This document shows positions 35,287 to 41,884 of a DNA stretch of 64,000 nt, one piece after another. The stretch's first letter is position 1. Each line of letters begins with the position of its first letter. The translations under genes and the position numbers were made by a program. The notes below the pieces were generated by a model. That model made no database searches and was not told the origin of the DNA. It saw nothing but the letters and a program-made list of their open reading frames with translations. This DNA is from Arcobacter acticola (lineage in GTDB: Bacteria; Campylobacterota; Campylobacteria; Campylobacterales; Arcobacteraceae), in NCBI RefSeq assembly GCF_013177675.1, contig NZ_CP042652.1, positions 930,001 to 994,000 on the forward strand, read 5' to 3'.

Positions 35287-36709
35287 TATAATTACACATA
35301 TAATCTTAATTATGAGTTTGGGTTGGTACTTAATTACTAACCTTCAATGGTATAACTATAAACTTGAAAGAGTTATTTTAAAGCATCATAAATGGCAATG
35401 GCATATAACTTATTTCCTCTCACCAATAGTACTTTTTTATATAATTCCAGAACCTTATTACGCAGCTTATTTCTTTATAATATATATGACAAGTTTTATT
35501 TTATGGAATAAAAAACTTGATCGTGCAGTTGTTTTAACATCAAGGGTAAAAAGATTTTTAGCAATTTTATTATTTACAACTTTTGCAATGACAGCACTTT
35601 GTTTATCAAGTCCTTCTTGTACTAATATGGTTATATTTACACCACTTATTTTAACTTATGGAATTTCTACATTATTAGAAAAAATATTTTTTATCTCATT
35701 TAAAAACAAGGGTAAACAAAGAATCAAAAGTATTGCAGGTTTAAGAACAATTGCAATTACTGCCTCATATGGTAAAACTTCAATTAAAAATTATTTGTAT
35801 CATGTATTAAAAAACAAATACAAAACATACAAAACTCCAAGATCTGTAAATACAATCGCTGGAATTGTTCTTGATGTAAATAGAGATATTCCTTTGGATA
35901 CACAAATTTATATTGCAGAAGCAGGAGCTAGAGTTAAAGGTGATATTGAAGAAATAGCAATGTTTTTAGAGCCTCAAATTTGTATTATAGGAAGTGTTGG
36001 TCCTCAGCATATTGAGTATTTTAAAACTTTAGATAATATTATACATACTAAAATGGAACTTCTAAAATCACCTAGAATGAAAATGGGATTTGTTCATGAA
36101 TCTGTTCCTATAAAAGCATATTCGACAATTACAAAGTTTCCAAATAATTTACATATTACAAAAAGTAATTTAGATGGAATTTGGTTTGATGTTGAGGTTG
36201 CTGGCGTAATAGAACATTTCCATGCACCAATATTAGGAAGTTTCAACGCTATAAATTTAACAGCAGTTATTTTAGTATCTCATTATTTAGGAATGAATAT
36301 ACATGAAATTAAAGTTGCTTTTGAATCACTTCCTCAAGTAGAACACAGACTTCAAAAAATAGAAGCAGGTGGGAAGTTAATAATTGATGACTCTTTTAAC
36401 GGAAACTTAGAAGGAATGTTAGAAGCTGTTAATATTTGCTCAAATCATAAAGGACGAAAAGTTATCATAACTCCTGGACTTGTGGAATCAACAGATGAAG
36501 CAAATATCCTTTTAGCAAAAGCTATAAATGAAAACTTTGACTTAGTAATTTTAACAGGAAGTTTAAATACTCATTTATTAAGTACAAATATAAATAAAGA
36601 GAAAGTTTATATCTTAAAAGATAAATCTTTAATGGAAGCTACCTTAGCTCAAAAAACAAGAATTGGTGATTTGATTTTATTTGCAAATGATGCACCAAAT
36701 TTTATATAG
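35273..36709 (+). CDS. murF: MurF-like Mur ligase with N-terminal membrane domain
   Basis: A 478-aa protein. The first ~130 residues form about four hydrophobic helices in place of the usual MurF substrate domain. The Mur ligase core follows: the P-loop TASYGKTS (GKTS instead of GKTT), KTPRSVNTIAGI, AEAGARVKGDI, and the C-terminal EHRLQKIEAGG and DDSFNGN motifs. MurF adds D-Ala-D-Ala to UDP-MurNAc-tripeptide, and ddl lies two genes upstream. I prefer the ATG at 35273; the frame is open two codons earlier at a TTG. It overlaps the hydrolase gene by 14 nt. Confidence 0.83.
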   Translation: MEYINIITHIILIMSLGWYLITNLQWYNYKLERVILKHHKWQWHITYFLSPIVLFYIIPEPYYAAYFFIIYMTSFILWNKKLDRAVVLTSRVKRFLAILLFTTFAMTALCLSSPSCTNMVIFTPLILTYGISTLLEKIFFISFKNKGKQRIKSIAGLRTIAITASYGKTSIKNYLYHVLKNKYKTYKTPRSVNTIAGIVLDVNRDIPLDTQIYIAEAGARVKGDIEEIAMFLEPQICIIGSVGPQHIEYFKTLDNIIHTKMELLKSPRMKMGFVHESVPIKAYSTITKFPNNLHITKSNLDGIWFDVEVAGVIEHFHAPILGSFNAINLTAVILVSHYLGMNIHEIKVAFESLPQVEHRLQKIEAGGKLIIDDSFNGNLEGMLEAVNICSNHKGRKVIITPGLVESTDEANILLAKAINENFDLVILTGSLNTHLLSTNINKEKVYILKDKSLMEATLAQKTRIGDLILFANDAPNFI

Positions 36710-36724
36710 ATTTTAGGAAAAAAG

Positions 36725-37213
36725 ATGGAACATTTATACGCACCATGGCGATACTCATATGTTAGTGAAGAAAAAATTGAAGGTTGTGTTTTTTGTCATA
36801 TTTCTAAAAATTTAGATGATGAGAAAATGCAAGTTTTATTTTATGATGAGTATTGTTATGTGGTTATGAATAAATTTCCATATAGTCCTGGTCATATGAT
36901 GGTAATACCACATTTTCATACTTCTAATATTGAAGATTTAGAAGATGATGTTTGGATGCAAATGAGCATACGAGTAAGACAAGGGGTAAAACTTTTAAAA
37001 GAAATTATGCCATGTGAAGGTGTAAATATTGGAATGAACCTTGGAAAAGCAGCAGGTGCAGGAATAGAGCAACATGTTCACTATCATATGCTACCACGTT
37101 GGCTTGGAGATACTAACTTTATAACTTCAATTGGAGGAGCTAGGGTATATCCTGCTTCATTTGATGAAATCTTAAATAAACTAAAAAGTAACGCTTCAAA
37201 ATATTTTATATAA
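36725..37213 (+). CDS. HIT-family hydrolase
   Basis: A 162-aa protein with the histidine triad HVHYHMLPRW near residue 119 and an N-terminal YAPWRYSYV and CVFCHI segment typical of bacterial HIT proteins related to Ap4A phosphorylase/Fhit. Such enzymes split dinucleoside polyphosphates or AMP-linked compounds. It follows murF by 15 nt with an AGGAAA site. The physiological substrate cannot be inferred. Confidence 0.9.
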   Translation: MEHLYAPWRYSYVSEEKIEGCVFCHISKNLDDEKMQVLFYDEYCYVVMNKFPYSPGHMMVIPHFHTSNIEDLEDDVWMQMSIRVRQGVKLLKEIMPCEGVNIGMNLGKAAGAGIEQHVHYHMLPRWLGDTNFITSIGGARVYPASFDEILNKLKSNASKYFI

Positions 37214-37275
37214 AATTTTACTTAAAATAGGATATTAATTGTATTCTTTAATAAAATATGGGTTATTATGCCCTT

Positions 37276-38631
37276 ATGGAAAATATACAATTAGAAAATC
37301 AAAACATTTTTTTTACAGGTCGAGCTGATAAAATTGATAAAAGTGAACTAGAAAAATACTTAGTTCAAAAAGGCTCAATTTTAGTAAACTCTATAAATGA
37401 AGCTACAATAATTATACAAGGTAAATTTACACCTATTTATTTAGAAGAAACTATTTATGAGCTATCAAAAAAACAAATTACAATAATACAAATAGAAAAA
37501 CTAGAAGAAGAATTTTCTTCAAATTTAGATATTGACTCTATTTTAATGGCAATAAAGATATCAAAAGATAATGATAGACTACTTAAACTATTAAATAACA
37601 ACTTTTTTTCTGATGATATTTTTGTAAAGCTTTTAAAATTATATGATTTTAAAGGTGATGATATTTATGATAGTGATGATAATCGAGATGTTTGTACAAA
37701 AATAGTAGAAAGATTTTGTTCTTTAATTGAAACAAATCACAATATCCAATATGCACCTATTGGAGTTTATTATACAGCACTTGAAACTTCAAACCCAAAT
37801 CTTTTAGATGTGATTTATAATATGCCAGATTATGTGATTTCTGCAAAAAATGCACAAGAAGATCAGCCCTTAAGTTTGAAAGAAGTAGTTGCCTTGAATC
37901 CTAATACTTCAAAAATAACTCAATTAGAAATTTTAAAAAATTCAAAAATGAATGAACTTAAATTTTTGGCATTAAATGAATCAATAAATCAAATGATTCA
38001 AAAAAAACTCTTTGAGAAAAATATAGATGAAATTTCATTATCTTTAATAAAAACAAATAATTATGATGAATCATTTATTGATGATTTTTTAAATAATTAT
38101 ACTTTAAAAAAAGAGTTATTAAAAAAAGCTATTTTAGATGATAAACTCTTTTATAAGTTTTTTGAAAATATAGATGATGTAAGTATTATATATCTAAGTT
38201 CAAATGATACTTTAAATGAAGAGATGATAAATAAACTCTTTGAGAAAAATATAGATAATGCAAATATAAATTTACTCAAAAATAAAAATTGTCCAAAGGA
38301 TAAAATAGAAGAGTTCTTAAAACTTCAAGACAAAATTTATAATATAAGTATTGCACACAATACAACTTTGCCAACACAATTATATCTTTATCTTTTTTCA
38401 CTTGATGATTATGATGTAAATTTATCCCTTGCACAAAATACAACAACACCAAAAGAAGTGTTAAAAAGTTTGGCAGCTTTAAATGATAAATTTATAAATG
38501 AAACACTTTGTGCAAATATAAGTACACCAATAAATATACTTTTACAATATCAATATGATGGTGGATTAAAAAATATTATTTCAAATAATGATAGCTTTAG
38601 AGAATTTACAAGAAAAATGGTAGGAATGTAA
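37276..38631 (+). CDS. BRCT-domain protein with leucine-rich-variant-like repeats
   Basis: A protein of about 451 aa. The N-terminal ~70 residues read as a BRCT domain (NIFFTGRADKIDKSELEKYL, GSILVNSINEATIIIQGK, then KQITIIQIEKLEEEF). The rest contains repeated helical units with N-T-P-like turns (ALNPNTSKITQLEIL, IAHNTTLPTQLYL, LAQNTTTPKEVLKSL, ANISTPINILL), like leucine-rich repeat variants. A 24-nt identical DNA repeat at 38005 and 38233 encodes KLFEKNID twice. The start is uncertain: ATG at 37276 is preferred over the one at 37258, and neither has a good ribosome-binding site. The gene is followed at once by a MoxR ATPase and a VWA gene. Confidence 0.7.
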   Translation: MENIQLENQNIFFTGRADKIDKSELEKYLVQKGSILVNSINEATIIIQGKFTPIYLEETIYELSKKQITIIQIEKLEEEFSSNLDIDSILMAIKISKDNDRLLKLLNNNFFSDDIFVKLLKLYDFKGDDIYDSDDNRDVCTKIVERFCSLIETNHNIQYAPIGVYYTALETSNPNLLDVIYNMPDYVISAKNAQEDQPLSLKEVVALNPNTSKITQLEILKNSKMNELKFLALNESINQMIQKKLFEKNIDEISLSLIKTNNYDESFIDDFLNNYTLKKELLKKAILDDKLFYKFFENIDDVSIIYLSSNDTLNEEMINKLFEKNIDNANINLLKNKNCPKDKIEEFLKLQDKIYNISIAHNTTLPTQLYLYLFSLDDYDVNLSLAQNTTTPKEVLKSLAALNDKFINETLCANISTPINILLQYQYDGGLKNIISNNDSFREFTRKMVGM

Positions 38632-38632
38632 T

Positions 38633-39637
38633 ATGAAAGCAAGCATTTTAAAAAAATCATTAATATCAATGATTGATTCAAAGATTCCAGTATTTGTTTG
38701 GGGAAATCCGGGAGTTGGAAAATCTTCAATAATAAAACAAATTGCAAATGATAAAAATATGGAGTTTATAGATTTAAGACTATCTTTACTTGATCCCACA
38801 GATTTAAGAGGTATACCTTTTTTTGATTCAGCAAATAAAAGTGCAATTTGGGCGAAACCAGAGTTTTTACCAAATTCAAATAGCCAAGCTTTTGGGATAC
38901 TTTTTTTAGATGAGATAAATTCAGCACCTCCAACAGTTCAAGCTGCAGCTTACCAGCTTATCTTAGATAGAAAGATAGGAGAATATACACTTCCTATGAA
39001 TTATGCTATTGTGGCAGCTGGAAACTATGAAAGCGATAGGGGTGTAACATACAGAATGCCAACACCACTTGCAAATAGGTTTGTTCATCTTGACTTTGAA
39101 CTTGATTTTGAAGAGTGGAAATCTTGGGCTTATGAATCAAAAATTGATACAAGAATTATCTCATTTTTATCATATAAACCCCAAAACCTTTTTACTTTTG
39201 ATGCAAAAGCAAAAGAAAAATCATTTGCAACTCCAAGGTCTTGGTCCTTTGTAAATGATATATTAAATTCAAATTTACAAATAGAATTTTTAAAAGATGT
39301 AATTAGTGGAGCTGTAGGGAAAGATAGTTCAGATGAGTTTATGAATTTTTGTAAAGTCATAGATAAACTGCCAAATATACAAGAAATACTAGAAGCTATT
39401 AATACAGAAGTACCAACAAATAACTCAGTCTTATATGCATTGTGTACGGGAATAGTTTATGCTTTAAAAGAGAATTCAAGTATTGAGAAAGTAACAAATA
39501 TATTAAATTATTCTTTAAATCTTCCAAATGAATTTTCAGTTATGTTAATTAGAGATTTACAAAAAGAGGGTGTTGAAATAGAAAGTTCAGTATCATGGAA
39601 ATCATGGGTAAATGCAAATAAGTTTTTAATAGGCTAG
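38633..39637 (+). CDS. MoxR-type AAA+ ATPase
   Basis: A 334-aa AAA+ protein: Walker A GNPGVGKS (24-31), Walker B GILFLDE (D91, E92), sensor-1 region IVAAGNYE, and TPLANRFVHL with the arginine finger. LLDPTDLRGIP is typical of the MoxR/RavA branch. MoxR ATPases act with VWA-domain proteins as chaperones that mature or remodel protein complexes. It starts 1 nt after the BRCT-repeat gene and is followed 10 nt later by the VWA gene, so the three genes form one unit. Confidence 0.88.
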   Translation: MKASILKKSLISMIDSKIPVFVWGNPGVGKSSIIKQIANDKNMEFIDLRLSLLDPTDLRGIPFFDSANKSAIWAKPEFLPNSNSQAFGILFLDEINSAPPTVQAAAYQLILDRKIGEYTLPMNYAIVAAGNYESDRGVTYRMPTPLANRFVHLDFELDFEEWKSWAYESKIDTRIISFLSYKPQNLFTFDAKAKEKSFATPRSWSFVNDILNSNLQIEFLKDVISGAVGKDSSDEFMNFCKVIDKLPNIQEILEAINTEVPTNNSVLYALCTGIVYALKENSSIEKVTNILNYSLNLPNEFSVMLIRDLQKEGVEIESSVSWKSWVNANKFLIG

Positions 39638-39647
39638 GGCATTATAA

Positions 39648-40739
39648 ATGAATCAAATTCAAGAGAGAATTTCAAAAGTTAAATCTACTTTGATTATAGA
39701 ACAACCTTATTTTGGTTCAATTGCTTCATATTTAAAACCTGTATTAAATGAAGATATAAAAACTTTTCAATCAACTCCCTCAAGCTTTTTATATAATGAT
39801 GAATATATCTCTTCTTTATCAAATGAAGAGTTAGCGTTTATTCTAACAAACTCTGCAATGCATCAAGCCTTTGGACATTCATCAAGAATAAACGGCAGAA
39901 TGCCATGGCTTTGGACACTTGCTAGTGATTATGCAATTAACTCACTTTTAGTAAATAATGGTTTAGAAATGCCTGAGCATATAAACTATGATATGAGATT
40001 TGATGATATGAGTGCCGAAGCTATTTATTCAACATTAGAAAATGAAATAGATGATGATAAACATACTCCTGAACAAATCTCACAAATATCATTTGAACAT
40101 CATAAAGATGAAGAAATAGATGATGAAGAAAATCTTCAAGATATGAGCGAACAACTTTTAAATAAAGCAAAACTACAAGGTGATTTGCCTTTAGGTATAG
40201 AGATTTTAGTACCAAAGCTATTTGAAGGCAAAATAACATGGGAAGATGAACTCTATGATGTAATTGAACAAGCTGTAAAATTTGACTATAGATTATTCCC
40301 TGTAAATAAAAGATATCTAAGTTTAGGAATTGCCTTACCAGCTTTAAGTGGCACAAAAGTAAAAATTGTAATTGCCATTGATAGTTCAGGTTCAATTGAT
40401 GGAAGTTTATTATCAAAATTTTTAGCAGAAGTAGAATCAATAATGAATAGTTTTGAAAATTTTGAAATTGATTTATTAATAGCTGATGCAAAAGTTCAAG
40501 AACATCACATATTATATCCAGGAGATGAGCTGTCATATACTATAAAAGGTGGAGGTGGTACAAACTTTGAAAATACCTTTATTTATATAGATGAAAATAT
40601 TGAAGACATAAATCTTTTATTATATTTTACTGATGGATTTGGAAAGTTTCCAGATAATGAAGCAACTTTTGAAACAGTTTGGATATTAACAAATGAAGAA
40701 CTTAATATTCCTTTTGGAAGAATAATACTACTTAAATAA
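39648..40739 (+). CDS. VWA-like DUF2201-type protein, partner of the MoxR ATPase
   Basis: A 363-aa protein. The N-terminal half matches the metallopeptidase-like domain found before DUF2201 VWA domains, but where HExxH is expected it reads MHQAFGH (H72, Q73, H77), so the catalytic Glu is missing. An acidic linker (about 130-170) follows. The C-terminal VWA domain has the MIDAS motif DSSGS (245-249), GGGGTNF and YFTDGFG, so metal-dependent ligand binding is likely intact. It forms the third gene of the BRCT/MoxR/VWA module. Confidence 0.83.
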   Translation: MNQIQERISKVKSTLIIEQPYFGSIASYLKPVLNEDIKTFQSTPSSFLYNDEYISSLSNEELAFILTNSAMHQAFGHSSRINGRMPWLWTLASDYAINSLLVNNGLEMPEHINYDMRFDDMSAEAIYSTLENEIDDDKHTPEQISQISFEHHKDEEIDDEENLQDMSEQLLNKAKLQGDLPLGIEILVPKLFEGKITWEDELYDVIEQAVKFDYRLFPVNKRYLSLGIALPALSGTKVKIVIAIDSSGSIDGSLLSKFLAEVESIMNSFENFEIDLLIADAKVQEHHILYPGDELSYTIKGGGGTNFENTFIYIDENIEDINLLLYFTDGFGKFPDNEATFETVWILTNEELNIPFGRIILLK

Positions 40740-40881
40740 TTTTAATAAGCCATTCATAATTACAATAAGTATGATAAATTAGAATTCTTAATTTAAACTT
40801 TACATAGTATCTAAAAGAGTATATTCTTCCTTTTAAAAAGGAAATAAAATTCAGTATTTTATTTCAGAAGCCCCATAATAC

Positions 40882-40910
40882 TTGACATTTACCTCCTAAT
40901 AAGTTATAAT
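40882..40910 (+). promoter_or_regulatory. Consensus sigma-70 promoter of the S10 ribosomal operon
   Basis: TTGACA (40882-40887), a 17-bp spacer and TATAAT (40905-40910). This is a textbook promoter in a genome where most -35 boxes are weak. It precedes rpsJ by 65 nt. Confidence 0.9.
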
Positions 40911-40928
40911 CCGCGTCCACTAAATGTG

Positions 40929-40955
40929 GTTAGAGTGCATTTATGCGCATCTAAC
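40929..40955 (+). promoter_or_regulatory. Leader hairpin upstream of rpsJ
   Basis: GTTAGA (40929-40934) pairs with TCTAAC (40950-40955), and GTGCAT pairs with ATGCGC inside it, with one bulged A and a TT loop. It lies in the S10 leader and may be a site of ribosomal-protein feedback. In E. coli, L4 acts on the S10 leader, but homology to this hairpin is not shown. Confidence 0.4.
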
Positions 40956-40975
40956 GAGTTCTTTAAAGGAAAAAA

Positions 40976-41290
40976 ATGGAAAAGATTAGATTAAAGCTTA
41001 AAGCTTATGATCATAGAGTTTTAGACAGAAGTGTTGCTTCAATTGTTGAAGCCGTAAAAAGAACTGGTGCTGATTTAAGAGGTCCAATCCCTCTTCCTAC
41101 AAAAATCAGAAGATATACAGTTATTAAAGGTCCTCACGTAAATAAGGATTCTAGAGAGCAATTTGAAATCAGAGTTCATTCAAGAATTATTGATATTATA
41201 GCTGCAACTCCAGATACTGTAGATTCATTAATGAAACTTGACTTAGCTCCTGAAGTTGATGTTGAAGTTAGATCTATGGGTCAAGAATAA
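40976..41290 (+). CDS. rpsJ: Ribosomal protein S10
   Basis: 104 aa, the full length of S10 (small subunit head; also NusE in antitermination). [17 protein letters not shown] at the N-terminus and [14 protein letters not shown] are diagnostic, as is the conserved [12 protein letters not shown]. First gene of the S10-spc operon, with an AAAGGA site and a consensus promoter upstream. Confidence 0.97.
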
Positions 41291-41308
41291 GAAGAAAGGG
41301 TAATATAG

Positions 41309-41884
41309 ATGGAATTTATAGTTCAAAAAATCGGTATGAGTAGAACAGTTTCTGTTCCAAGTACTCCTGTTACACTTTTAAAAGTTCTTGATACTAAAGT
41401 GTGTGAAGTGACTGACGGTGTAGCAATTGTATCGTATAGCAATGGTAAAAAATTTAACAAAGCTATCGAAGGTATACAAAAAAAATATAACTTATCTAAA
41501 GAGTTTAACAGATTTGCAACAATGACTGTAGCAAATGCTGAAGCTGGTGATTTAGATGTTTCTGGATTAAGTGAAGCGCAAATCTTAAAAACAACTTTTA
41601 AAACAAAAGGTAGAGGGTTTACTGGAGCGGTTAAAAGATGGAATTTTGCAGGTGGTAGAGCATCTCACGGACACAGAATGGGTAGAAGAGTTGGTTCAAT
41701 CGGTAACTGCGAATGGCCAGGTAGAGTTCAGCCAGGTAAGAAAATGCCAGGGCAATACGGAAATACAAATGTATCTGTGAAAAATGATGTTATTTCATTT
41801 GACGCTGAAACTGGAATTTTAGTTCTTAAAGGTTCAGTATCTGGTCCAAACGGAGCATTAGGAAAAGTAAAGGTTGCTAAATGA
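41309..41884 (+). CDS. rplC: Ribosomal protein L3
   Basis: 191 aa. It has the L3 core: [28 protein letters not shown] (read in parts) and the [17 protein letters not shown] loop that reaches toward the peptidyl-transferase centre and carries the conserved glutamine region. The protein starts [12 protein letters not shown]. The GAAAGG site stands before the ATG. It overlaps rplD by 4 nt. Confidence 0.96.

Follow-up and report, generated by a model that had tools for sequence, protein, structure and literature searches.

A BRCT–solenoid protein as a candidate third subunit of a MoxR–VWA-type machine in Arcobacter acticola

Couples of a MoxR AAA+ ATPase and a von Willebrand factor A (VWA) protein are common, few of them have a known client, and how clients are chosen is an open question. 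A locus of Arcobacter acticola bears on it: here such a couple directly follows a gene for a protein that appears to join a BRCT-fold domain to a helical solenoid. What does this additional protein contribute? We analysed the locus within a 64,000-nucleotide stretch of the genome (hereafter the window; contig NZ_CP042652.1, positions 930,001 to 994,000), in which positions are counted from the first letter and all features described lie on the + strand. We refer to the BRCT plus solenoid protein as A, to the MoxR AAA+ protein as B and to the DUF2201/VWA protein as C. The analysis suggests, with chances that we put slightly above even, that the three form one ATP-driven remodelling machine of the MoxR–VWA type, in which A is a dedicated third subunit that presents the client. 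This reading builds on features that sequence and structure prediction support directly: the predicted domains, the ATPase and metal-ion-dependent adhesion site (MIDAS) motifs, both intact, the order of the genes, and a distribution across genomes in which A depends almost absolutely on B and C.

Predicted architecture of the three proteins

Gene A (37258–38631) encodes 457 amino acids when read from its first ATG at 37258, and 451 when read from the next in-frame ATG at 37276. Met occupies the 37276 column in 19 of 29 aligned A homologues, and 37276 is the likely true start on this alignment; residue numbers for A refer to the 451-residue form. Gene B (38633–39637; 334 amino acids) begins after a single nucleotide (38632), and gene C (39648–40739; 363 amino acids) after a further ten.

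The N-terminal domain of A (37288–37527; residues 5–84) is predicted to be a BRCT fold that is remote in sequence, and the rest of the protein an LRV/HEAT-like solenoid (LRV, leucine-rich repeat variant). In an AlphaFold2 model built from a 29-row alignment (predicted local distance difference test (pLDDT) 90.9, predicted template modelling score (pTM) 0.76), a β-α-β-β-α-β-α domain is followed by two-helix repeats as far as the C terminus; the BRCT part, modelled within full-length A, has a pLDDT of 72–88. Foldseek matched the model with probability 1.00 to 1lrv (E 0.07) and to the BRCT domains of LigA and RFC1 (E 0.14–0.16), at E-values that are weak throughout, 0 of 535 matches lying at E up to 0.001. 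Structural realignment with VIA gave Z 10.3 and a root mean square deviation (r.m.s.d.) of 2.6 over 76 residues (model 3–82) for the LigA BRCT 9a6z_B, which is an integrative model, and Z 9.1 and an r.m.s.d. of 2.9 over 79 residues (model 5–84) for the crystal structure of the Rad4 BRCT, 4bmd; the RFC1 BRCT also reached Z 9.1. Helical-repeat structures of unrelated kinds are also numerous among the VIA matches (best Z 10.8), and these need mean only a common arrangement of helices in the model. Profile–profile alignment with hhalign placed A end-to-end on the LigA BRCTs of related genomes over 72 columns, with a probability of 85.7%.

Individual sequence matches are fainter. Window A scores 12.9 bits against the Pfam BRCT profile PF00533 (15.1 bits in the genome search), under the curated cut-off of 21.3; taken alone it lies under all Pfam cut-offs and has zero LRV matches. 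Among the 29 family members, the window protein is the only one that matches the BRCT profile at E up to 1. LRV_2 is matched by 20 and LRV by 16 of the 29 aligned homologues (best E 2.6e-14). Searching PDB sequences with the profile of A returned two chance-level matches only, and no enzymatic domain was seen in A. A preliminary description of this stretch, drawn from its letters alone, had assigned A a BRCT domain and leucine-rich-variant-like repeats, B and C a MoxR and a VWA identity, and the set a tight gene order. The first assignment is one on which the model, Foldseek, VIA and hhalign agree, the second is borne out by the LRV profiles and by 1lrv, and the remainder stood as well, given the Pfam scores and motifs reported below and the 1-nucleotide gap between A and B.

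Behind its BRCT-fold domain, A comprises a conserved helical region (37528–37830; residues 85–185), variable two-helix LRV/HEAT-like repeats (37831–38520; residues 186–415) and a conserved C-terminal cap (38521–38628; residues 416–451). Mean column entropy is 1.38 bits in the cap, 1.42 in the helical region, 1.99 in the BRCT domain and 2.44 in the repeats, so that the middle and the cap are the most conserved parts of A and the repeats the least. Conserved positions of the helical region include R101, N108, Y123, NRDV at 136–139, R146 and NHNxQY at 154–159, and N438 in the cap is invariant (98 of 98).

B is, to judge by its sequence, an AAA+ ATPase of the MoxR type whose motifs are intact. It scores 36.3 bits against Pfam AAA_3 (cut-off 27), has a Walker A motif at 38702–38725 (residues 24–31) and a Walker B motif, LFLDE, at 38900–38914 (residues 90–94), and is invariant across 10 of 10 aligned rows at 13 ATPase-motif positions, the names of which we take from general knowledge. 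Its best solved relatives are the AAA domains of midasin (E 6.8e-18); NorQ (9qhd_A) is a weak match (E 0.006).

C is a DUF2201 protein, its VWA domain with a complete MIDAS standing behind a metallopeptidase-like domain that lacks the catalytic glutamate. Pfam places DUF2201_N at 39663–40283 (residues 6–212; 80 bits) and the VWA domain at 40365–40733 (residues 240–362), with DUF2201 at 69.5 bits and both DUF2201 models above their cut-offs. The five MIDAS residues (DxSxS at 245–249, T305 and D329) are kept in 20 of 20 rows. The model of C is of moderate quality (pLDDT 77.6, pTM 0.49); in Foldseek its VWA part matches VWA domains (best E 1.5e-4), among them that of NorD (9qh6_G), with probability 0.97 and E 0.0023. 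By its Pfam name the N-terminal domain is a putative metallopeptidase, and H72 (18 of 20 rows), H77 (19) and D94 (19) are largely conserved, as would suit a working peptidase in an AAA+ protease for which A is the substrate adaptor. We regard that arrangement as very improbable: in the HExxH region the catalytic Glu (position 69) is present in 0 of 20 rows and the first His in 3, Asn replacing it in 17, even as the second His persists in 18.

Co-occurrence of A with the MoxR–VWA couple

The dependence of A on the couple emerged from a search of 397 Campylobacterota genomes, of which 70 carry A, 82 carry B and 88 carry C. The A profile had matched 100 genomes, 30 of which were dropped as carriers, being matched by LRV-type stretches only; two doubtful carriers were kept, one with a 175-amino-acid C-terminal part of A (G315) and one in which A is broken by contig ends (G407). 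Short LRV-type frames, mostly of about 190–230 amino acids (for example G046:C1:1670438-1670674), occur widely in the phylum, and their match to A is confined to its repeats. Among the 70 A genomes, B is present in 69 (one of these, G204, with only a 149-amino-acid fragment on the opposite strand), C in 69 and all three in 68. The two incomplete triads come from draft assemblies whose A gene sits at the end of a contig (G406, and G273, in which B is present but cut), and no complete genome among those searched has A alone. The Fisher co-occurrence of A with C is 2.6e-58, with relatedness ignored. The triad is conserved within its order and is no chance assembly of a single strain. The preliminary description had named two findings that would count against it, a first protein with no BRCT fold and a triad confined by chance to one strain; neither was observed.

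The genes are also closely linked. In 59 of the 70 genomes B comes after A on the same strand, no more than 400 bp away, with 2–22 nucleotides between the matched regions in 44 of these 59; in three more (G029, G043 and G365) B lies 744–903 bp from A. We also examined public loci from genome_contigs, covering 80 of the 110 relatives that two peptide patterns had retrieved, a search by which distant A genes beyond the phylum could be missed. Of these loci, 78 have B downstream of A, in one case 2.4 kb away, and the other two stop at contig ends 160 and 199 bases past A. C falls within the examined stretch in 62 of the 80; of the 18 loci without it, 11 cover less than 1.4 kb past A and seven cover 5 kb or more. 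In the genome set, 33 of the 59 B genes linked to A have C no more than 400 bp away, against 56 of the 68 that lack A. A, where it occurs, is tied most closely to the motor B, and since B–C pairs are frequent without A, A depends on B–C and B–C does not depend on A.

A is distributed patchily within the genus of the window, being found in 2 of 25 genomes. The genome of the window itself has two further DUF2201 copies. One belongs to a second B–C pair without A, at 2.966–2.968 Mb (L034 4938–7084); this pair is found in several members of the genus, beside a gene for an HI0933-like flavoprotein. The other, at about 1.258–1.262 Mb (L035 2749–6546), is a third MoxR–DUF2201 copy in which the MoxR gene is in two pieces that flank transposase genes (Pfam DDE_Tnp_1 and DDE_3) and the C frame is open.

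The history of the association was examined on a tree of 57 MoxR rows, chosen from the available B frames. MoxR genes linked to A cluster on it, with 3 label changes against a shuffled mean of 10.9 (0 of 500 shuffles as low), and they are spread across the order; one row (L038, from G030) was entered as lacking A and has an A gene 63 kb away on the same contig. In the family of the window, the triad stands directly after the HIT gene in G000 and G014. In G332 two genes, one for a FAD-dependent oxidoreductase, lie between the HIT gene and the triad, and in G315 the C-terminal part of A adjoins a similar oxidoreductase-like gene, the HIT gene being outside the examined stretch. G008 and G022 have S10 within 0.6 kb after HIT, and none of the three triad genes left a match there at E below 0.09. 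At other HIT loci, S10 was not found within the approximately 1.5 kb examined, bar the edge of a match in L217. The history of the triad fits descent with repeated loss; horizontal moves may also have contributed.

No match to A was found in plasmids or phages, and viral contigs held no relative. A candidate from outside the phylum, L094, labelled as a 'Desulfosporosinus' metagenome-assembled genome, was rejected, its B grouping with the clade of the window; it is probably a mislabelled bin, and its counterpart (G336:C119) is placed in the family of the window.

A putative client-presenting arm and its alternatives

How might three such proteins work together? B would be the ring motor, presumably a hexamer by analogy with NorQ–NorD (NorQD) and CbbQ–CbbO (CbbQO), and C would couple to the ring by its VWA domain and offer a metal-dependent binding site, as the same two systems suggest; by that analogy too, the ring would remodel the client. 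The most likely role of A in a machine of this type is that of a client-docking adaptor. Its middle and C-terminal cap are conserved and A is most tightly linked to B, so these parts are the likely contacts with B; its repeats are the most variable, and so are the likely client surface. On this pattern of conservation, A would be an elongated arm that attaches to the motor by its middle and cap and presents the client by its variable solenoid, its BRCT domain or both.

Several observations weigh against this picture. In seven of the 70 genomes B does not follow A even though the contig continues: B is 63 kb off in G030, on other contigs in G234, G259, G308 and G355, and a mere fragment in G204, and in G315 A itself is a C-terminal remnant. 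A–B adjacency is thus not obligatory. The counts are uncorrected for relatedness, and A occurs in five families of one order. A single frame containing both A and B in L100, which would have been a natural fusion, was rejected as the product of a run of N in the scaffold. Clustering of the flanks of 91 loci (up to 7 kb, without a search for named client families) found no flanking gene that recurs across families, so that no neighbour names the client. Should A be a functionally unrelated neighbour that shares the transcription unit by chance, its separation from B in those seven genomes would be natural; we rate this as the least probable of all the explanations considered, for 68 of the 70 A genomes have B and C, unlinked loci included (the B of G204 being its fragment), and in the other two A lies at a contig end.

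A could equally act on the ring itself, as a regulator or scaffold. In its fuller form this alternative has A nucleating, capping or localising the B ring while client recognition falls to C alone, the part played by the VWA partner in CbbQO. The A–B link, tighter than that of B to C (59 of 70 A genomes have B no more than 400 bp from A, and 33 of 59 A-linked B genes have C close behind), would suit such a role, as would the strong conservation of the middle and cap. Against it, A is most variable in its repeats, as might be seen in a surface that reads clients, and C stands within 400 bp of 56 of the 68 B genes that lack A, so that a motor can in general be made without A. On balance we think the fuller form unlikely, and retain client presentation as our preferred role for A.

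Which client, then, might A present? The preliminary description had envisaged a remodelling machine aimed at a BRCT-bound DNA-repair or phosphopeptide target. Remodelling is the best-supported reading of the triad; the proposed target fares poorly. BRCT domains that bind phosphate carry a Ser or Thr directly ahead of a conserved Gly. That Gly is present in 96 of 96 A homologues with the column, and the phosphate-site Ser/Thr in 3 of 96, a frequency that makes the phosphopeptide or repair inference weak. Window A is one of the three, with a Thr, and its 89%-identical orthologue has Ala; the 'GSK' helix motif of LigA has no counterpart in the aligned region of window A. Reading of DNA ends or phosphopeptides is thus unlikely as a common function of the A family, as far as these residues tell. 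We infer that the BRCT domain of A may bind a target.

The genes around A offer some encouragement to a DNA-related client. Flanking genes, named with Pfam unless said to be assigned by eye, include a GGDEF response regulator (33 of 91 loci), a Na+/H+ antiporter (33), a PIF1-like helicase (32) and an ExoX-like exonuclease (17), mostly in loci labelled Sulfurimonas or Sulfuricurvum, a labelling that is not fully tabulated. A Y-family (IMS) polymerase is near A in 4 of the 91 loci, all Hydrogenimonas-type (L010 3520–4797, L098, L099 and L101), LigA adjoins A in G234 (L228 2119–4071) and DnaX is near A in G089 (L088 8866–10749). Such neighbours are a mild point for a DNA-related client, with no background rate behind the count. 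They bear on the proposal that the machine is directed at DNA-repair or phosphopeptide targets through its BRCT domain, a proposal that is compatible with client presentation by A if the client is a protein of DNA metabolism. The fold of A is nearest to BRCTs of the LigA, Rad4, RFC1 and PARP1 type, and in several clades A has genes of DNA metabolism nearby; naming these genes by Pfam raised our estimate for the proposal slightly. It stays low even so. Besides the rarity of the phosphate-site residue and the missing GSK motif, the exonuclease and helicase accompany equally recurrent genes unrelated to DNA, namely the antiporter and the response regulator, as in a locus shared by descent.

Other neighbours raise the prospect of an anti-phage or conflict system of the ternary MoxR–vWA type (VMAP and kin), with A as a sensor or an effector-side protein. 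Ternary systems with TPR or HEAT repeats in the effector position are described (PMC7159879), A is patchy within the genus of the window, and two genomes have restriction–modification genes inserted between B and C. Pointing the other way, a PADLOC search at E up to 1 gave 0 matches for A, 0 for C and six weak ones for B (best DolB, 24.7 bits); A has no enzymatic domain that we could see and no match in plasmids, phages or viral contigs; the locus in the window is flanked by a HIT gene and the S10 operon; and A-linked MoxR genes are dispersed over the order. We consider a conflict role improbable.

The two restriction–modification cases belong to a wider set of inserts after B in some Sulfurimonas-type genomes: an AAA_14 ATPase with a type ISP restriction–modification gene (L077 7046–11547), an Eco57I methylase (L087 6244–7746) and a polysaccharide flippase-like gene (L084 7180–8568). 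The B–C gap looks like an insertion spot. Further repeat or VWA genes were seen nearby: a BspA-type leucine-rich repeat protein beside the MoxR–DUF2201 genes of G036 (L039 2918–5119), ankyrin-repeat proteins ahead of A in Hydrogenimonas-type genomes (L010 9309–9803; L097 6394–6891), and, in G273 (L089 2297–5429), BatD and VWA/TPR-domain genes that precede A and B as a second VWA-type cluster.

In the window, the three co-directional genes lie between a HIT-family gene (36725–37213; Pfam HIT) and a ribosomal-protein operon that starts at 40976 and was assigned by eye to S10. A sigma-70-like promoter at 40882–40910, matching the consensus at 12 of 12 positions (TTGACA-17-TATAAT), precedes the operon; since the operon has its own promoter, the triad need not belong to it. 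Across 36600–41100, promoter-like sites (30 found, 31.4 expected) and terminator-like sites (1 found, 1.3 expected) are at chance level, and an Rfam scan of 36500–41400 gave no matches.

Comparison with known systems

The preliminary description knew of no account of such an assembly, and the literature we searched agrees, giving no paper that names a machine with this third subunit. A full-text search, with most subscription papers and preprints outside its coverage, returned no paper with both BRCT and MoxR and none joining MoxR, von Willebrand and leucine-rich repeat variant. Papers on DUF2201 yielded none that was relevant by its title and the start of its abstract. The MoxR family at large has nine subfamilies, TM0930 among them (PMC11432383).

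The nearest relative in design is NorQ–NorD, which inserts iron into cNOR and likewise pairs a MoxR motor with a VWA protein bearing a complete MIDAS; B weakly matches NorQ 9qhd_A, and the model of C matches the NorD VWA domain 9qh6_G. In two studies (PMC13036017; PMC9976466), a finger of the NorD VWA domain enters the pore of the NorQ ring, and the client is proposed to be held, during rotation of the ring, by the N-terminal domain of NorD and its MIDAS or linker. Unlike that system, the triad has a separate BRCT–solenoid subunit, C has DUF2201_N, and no client gene is shared among the clustered flanks. CbbQ–CbbO, a rubisco activase, is a further AAA+ motor with a VWA substrate adaptor, CbbO (PMC4660213); there the components are two and the client is rubisco, whereas here a third subunit is present.

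The ternary MoxR–vWA conflict systems (VMAP and others) resemble the triad in combining MoxR, vWA and a third component, with TPR and HEAT repeats among their domains (PMC7159879). Here, by contrast, the third component is BRCT plus LRV, and we saw no enzymatic effector. Against their bpMoxR model B scores 11.8 bits, under the cut-off of 27, and the words BRCT and LRV have 0 occurrences in the main text of PMC7159879.

RavA–ViaA of E. coli, likened here by description, is also a MoxR plus VWA chaperone pair. We know of no BRCT/LRV third subunit in it. Midasin (Rea1), whose AAA domains are the best solved sequence match of B, is a single eukaryotic polypeptide for ribosome maturation and is not known to have a BRCT domain. 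The logic of a VWA domain acting within the ring (PMC13036017) would be common to midasin and the triad. The folds of the two parts of A are those of the LigA BRCT and of 1lrv; in A both are joined in one protein, and the Ser/Thr of the phosphate site is not kept.

The triad may form a distinct MoxR–VWA class with a separate BRCT–α-solenoid client receptor, old in the order, its BRCT domain recruited from DNA ends or phosphopeptides to remodelling, a proposal that we hold tentatively, at somewhat less than even chances. A would then be a bacterial BRCT protein outside the usual DNA ligase setting, with the phosphate site lost in nearly all members. Since A is almost never found without the couple, it is usable as bait, and if A is indeed the client receptor, client choice is separated here from the VWA partner. 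Set beside NorQ–NorD, CbbQ–CbbO and their kin, the triad is a variant of the MoxR–VWA kind, set apart by its probable third subunit.

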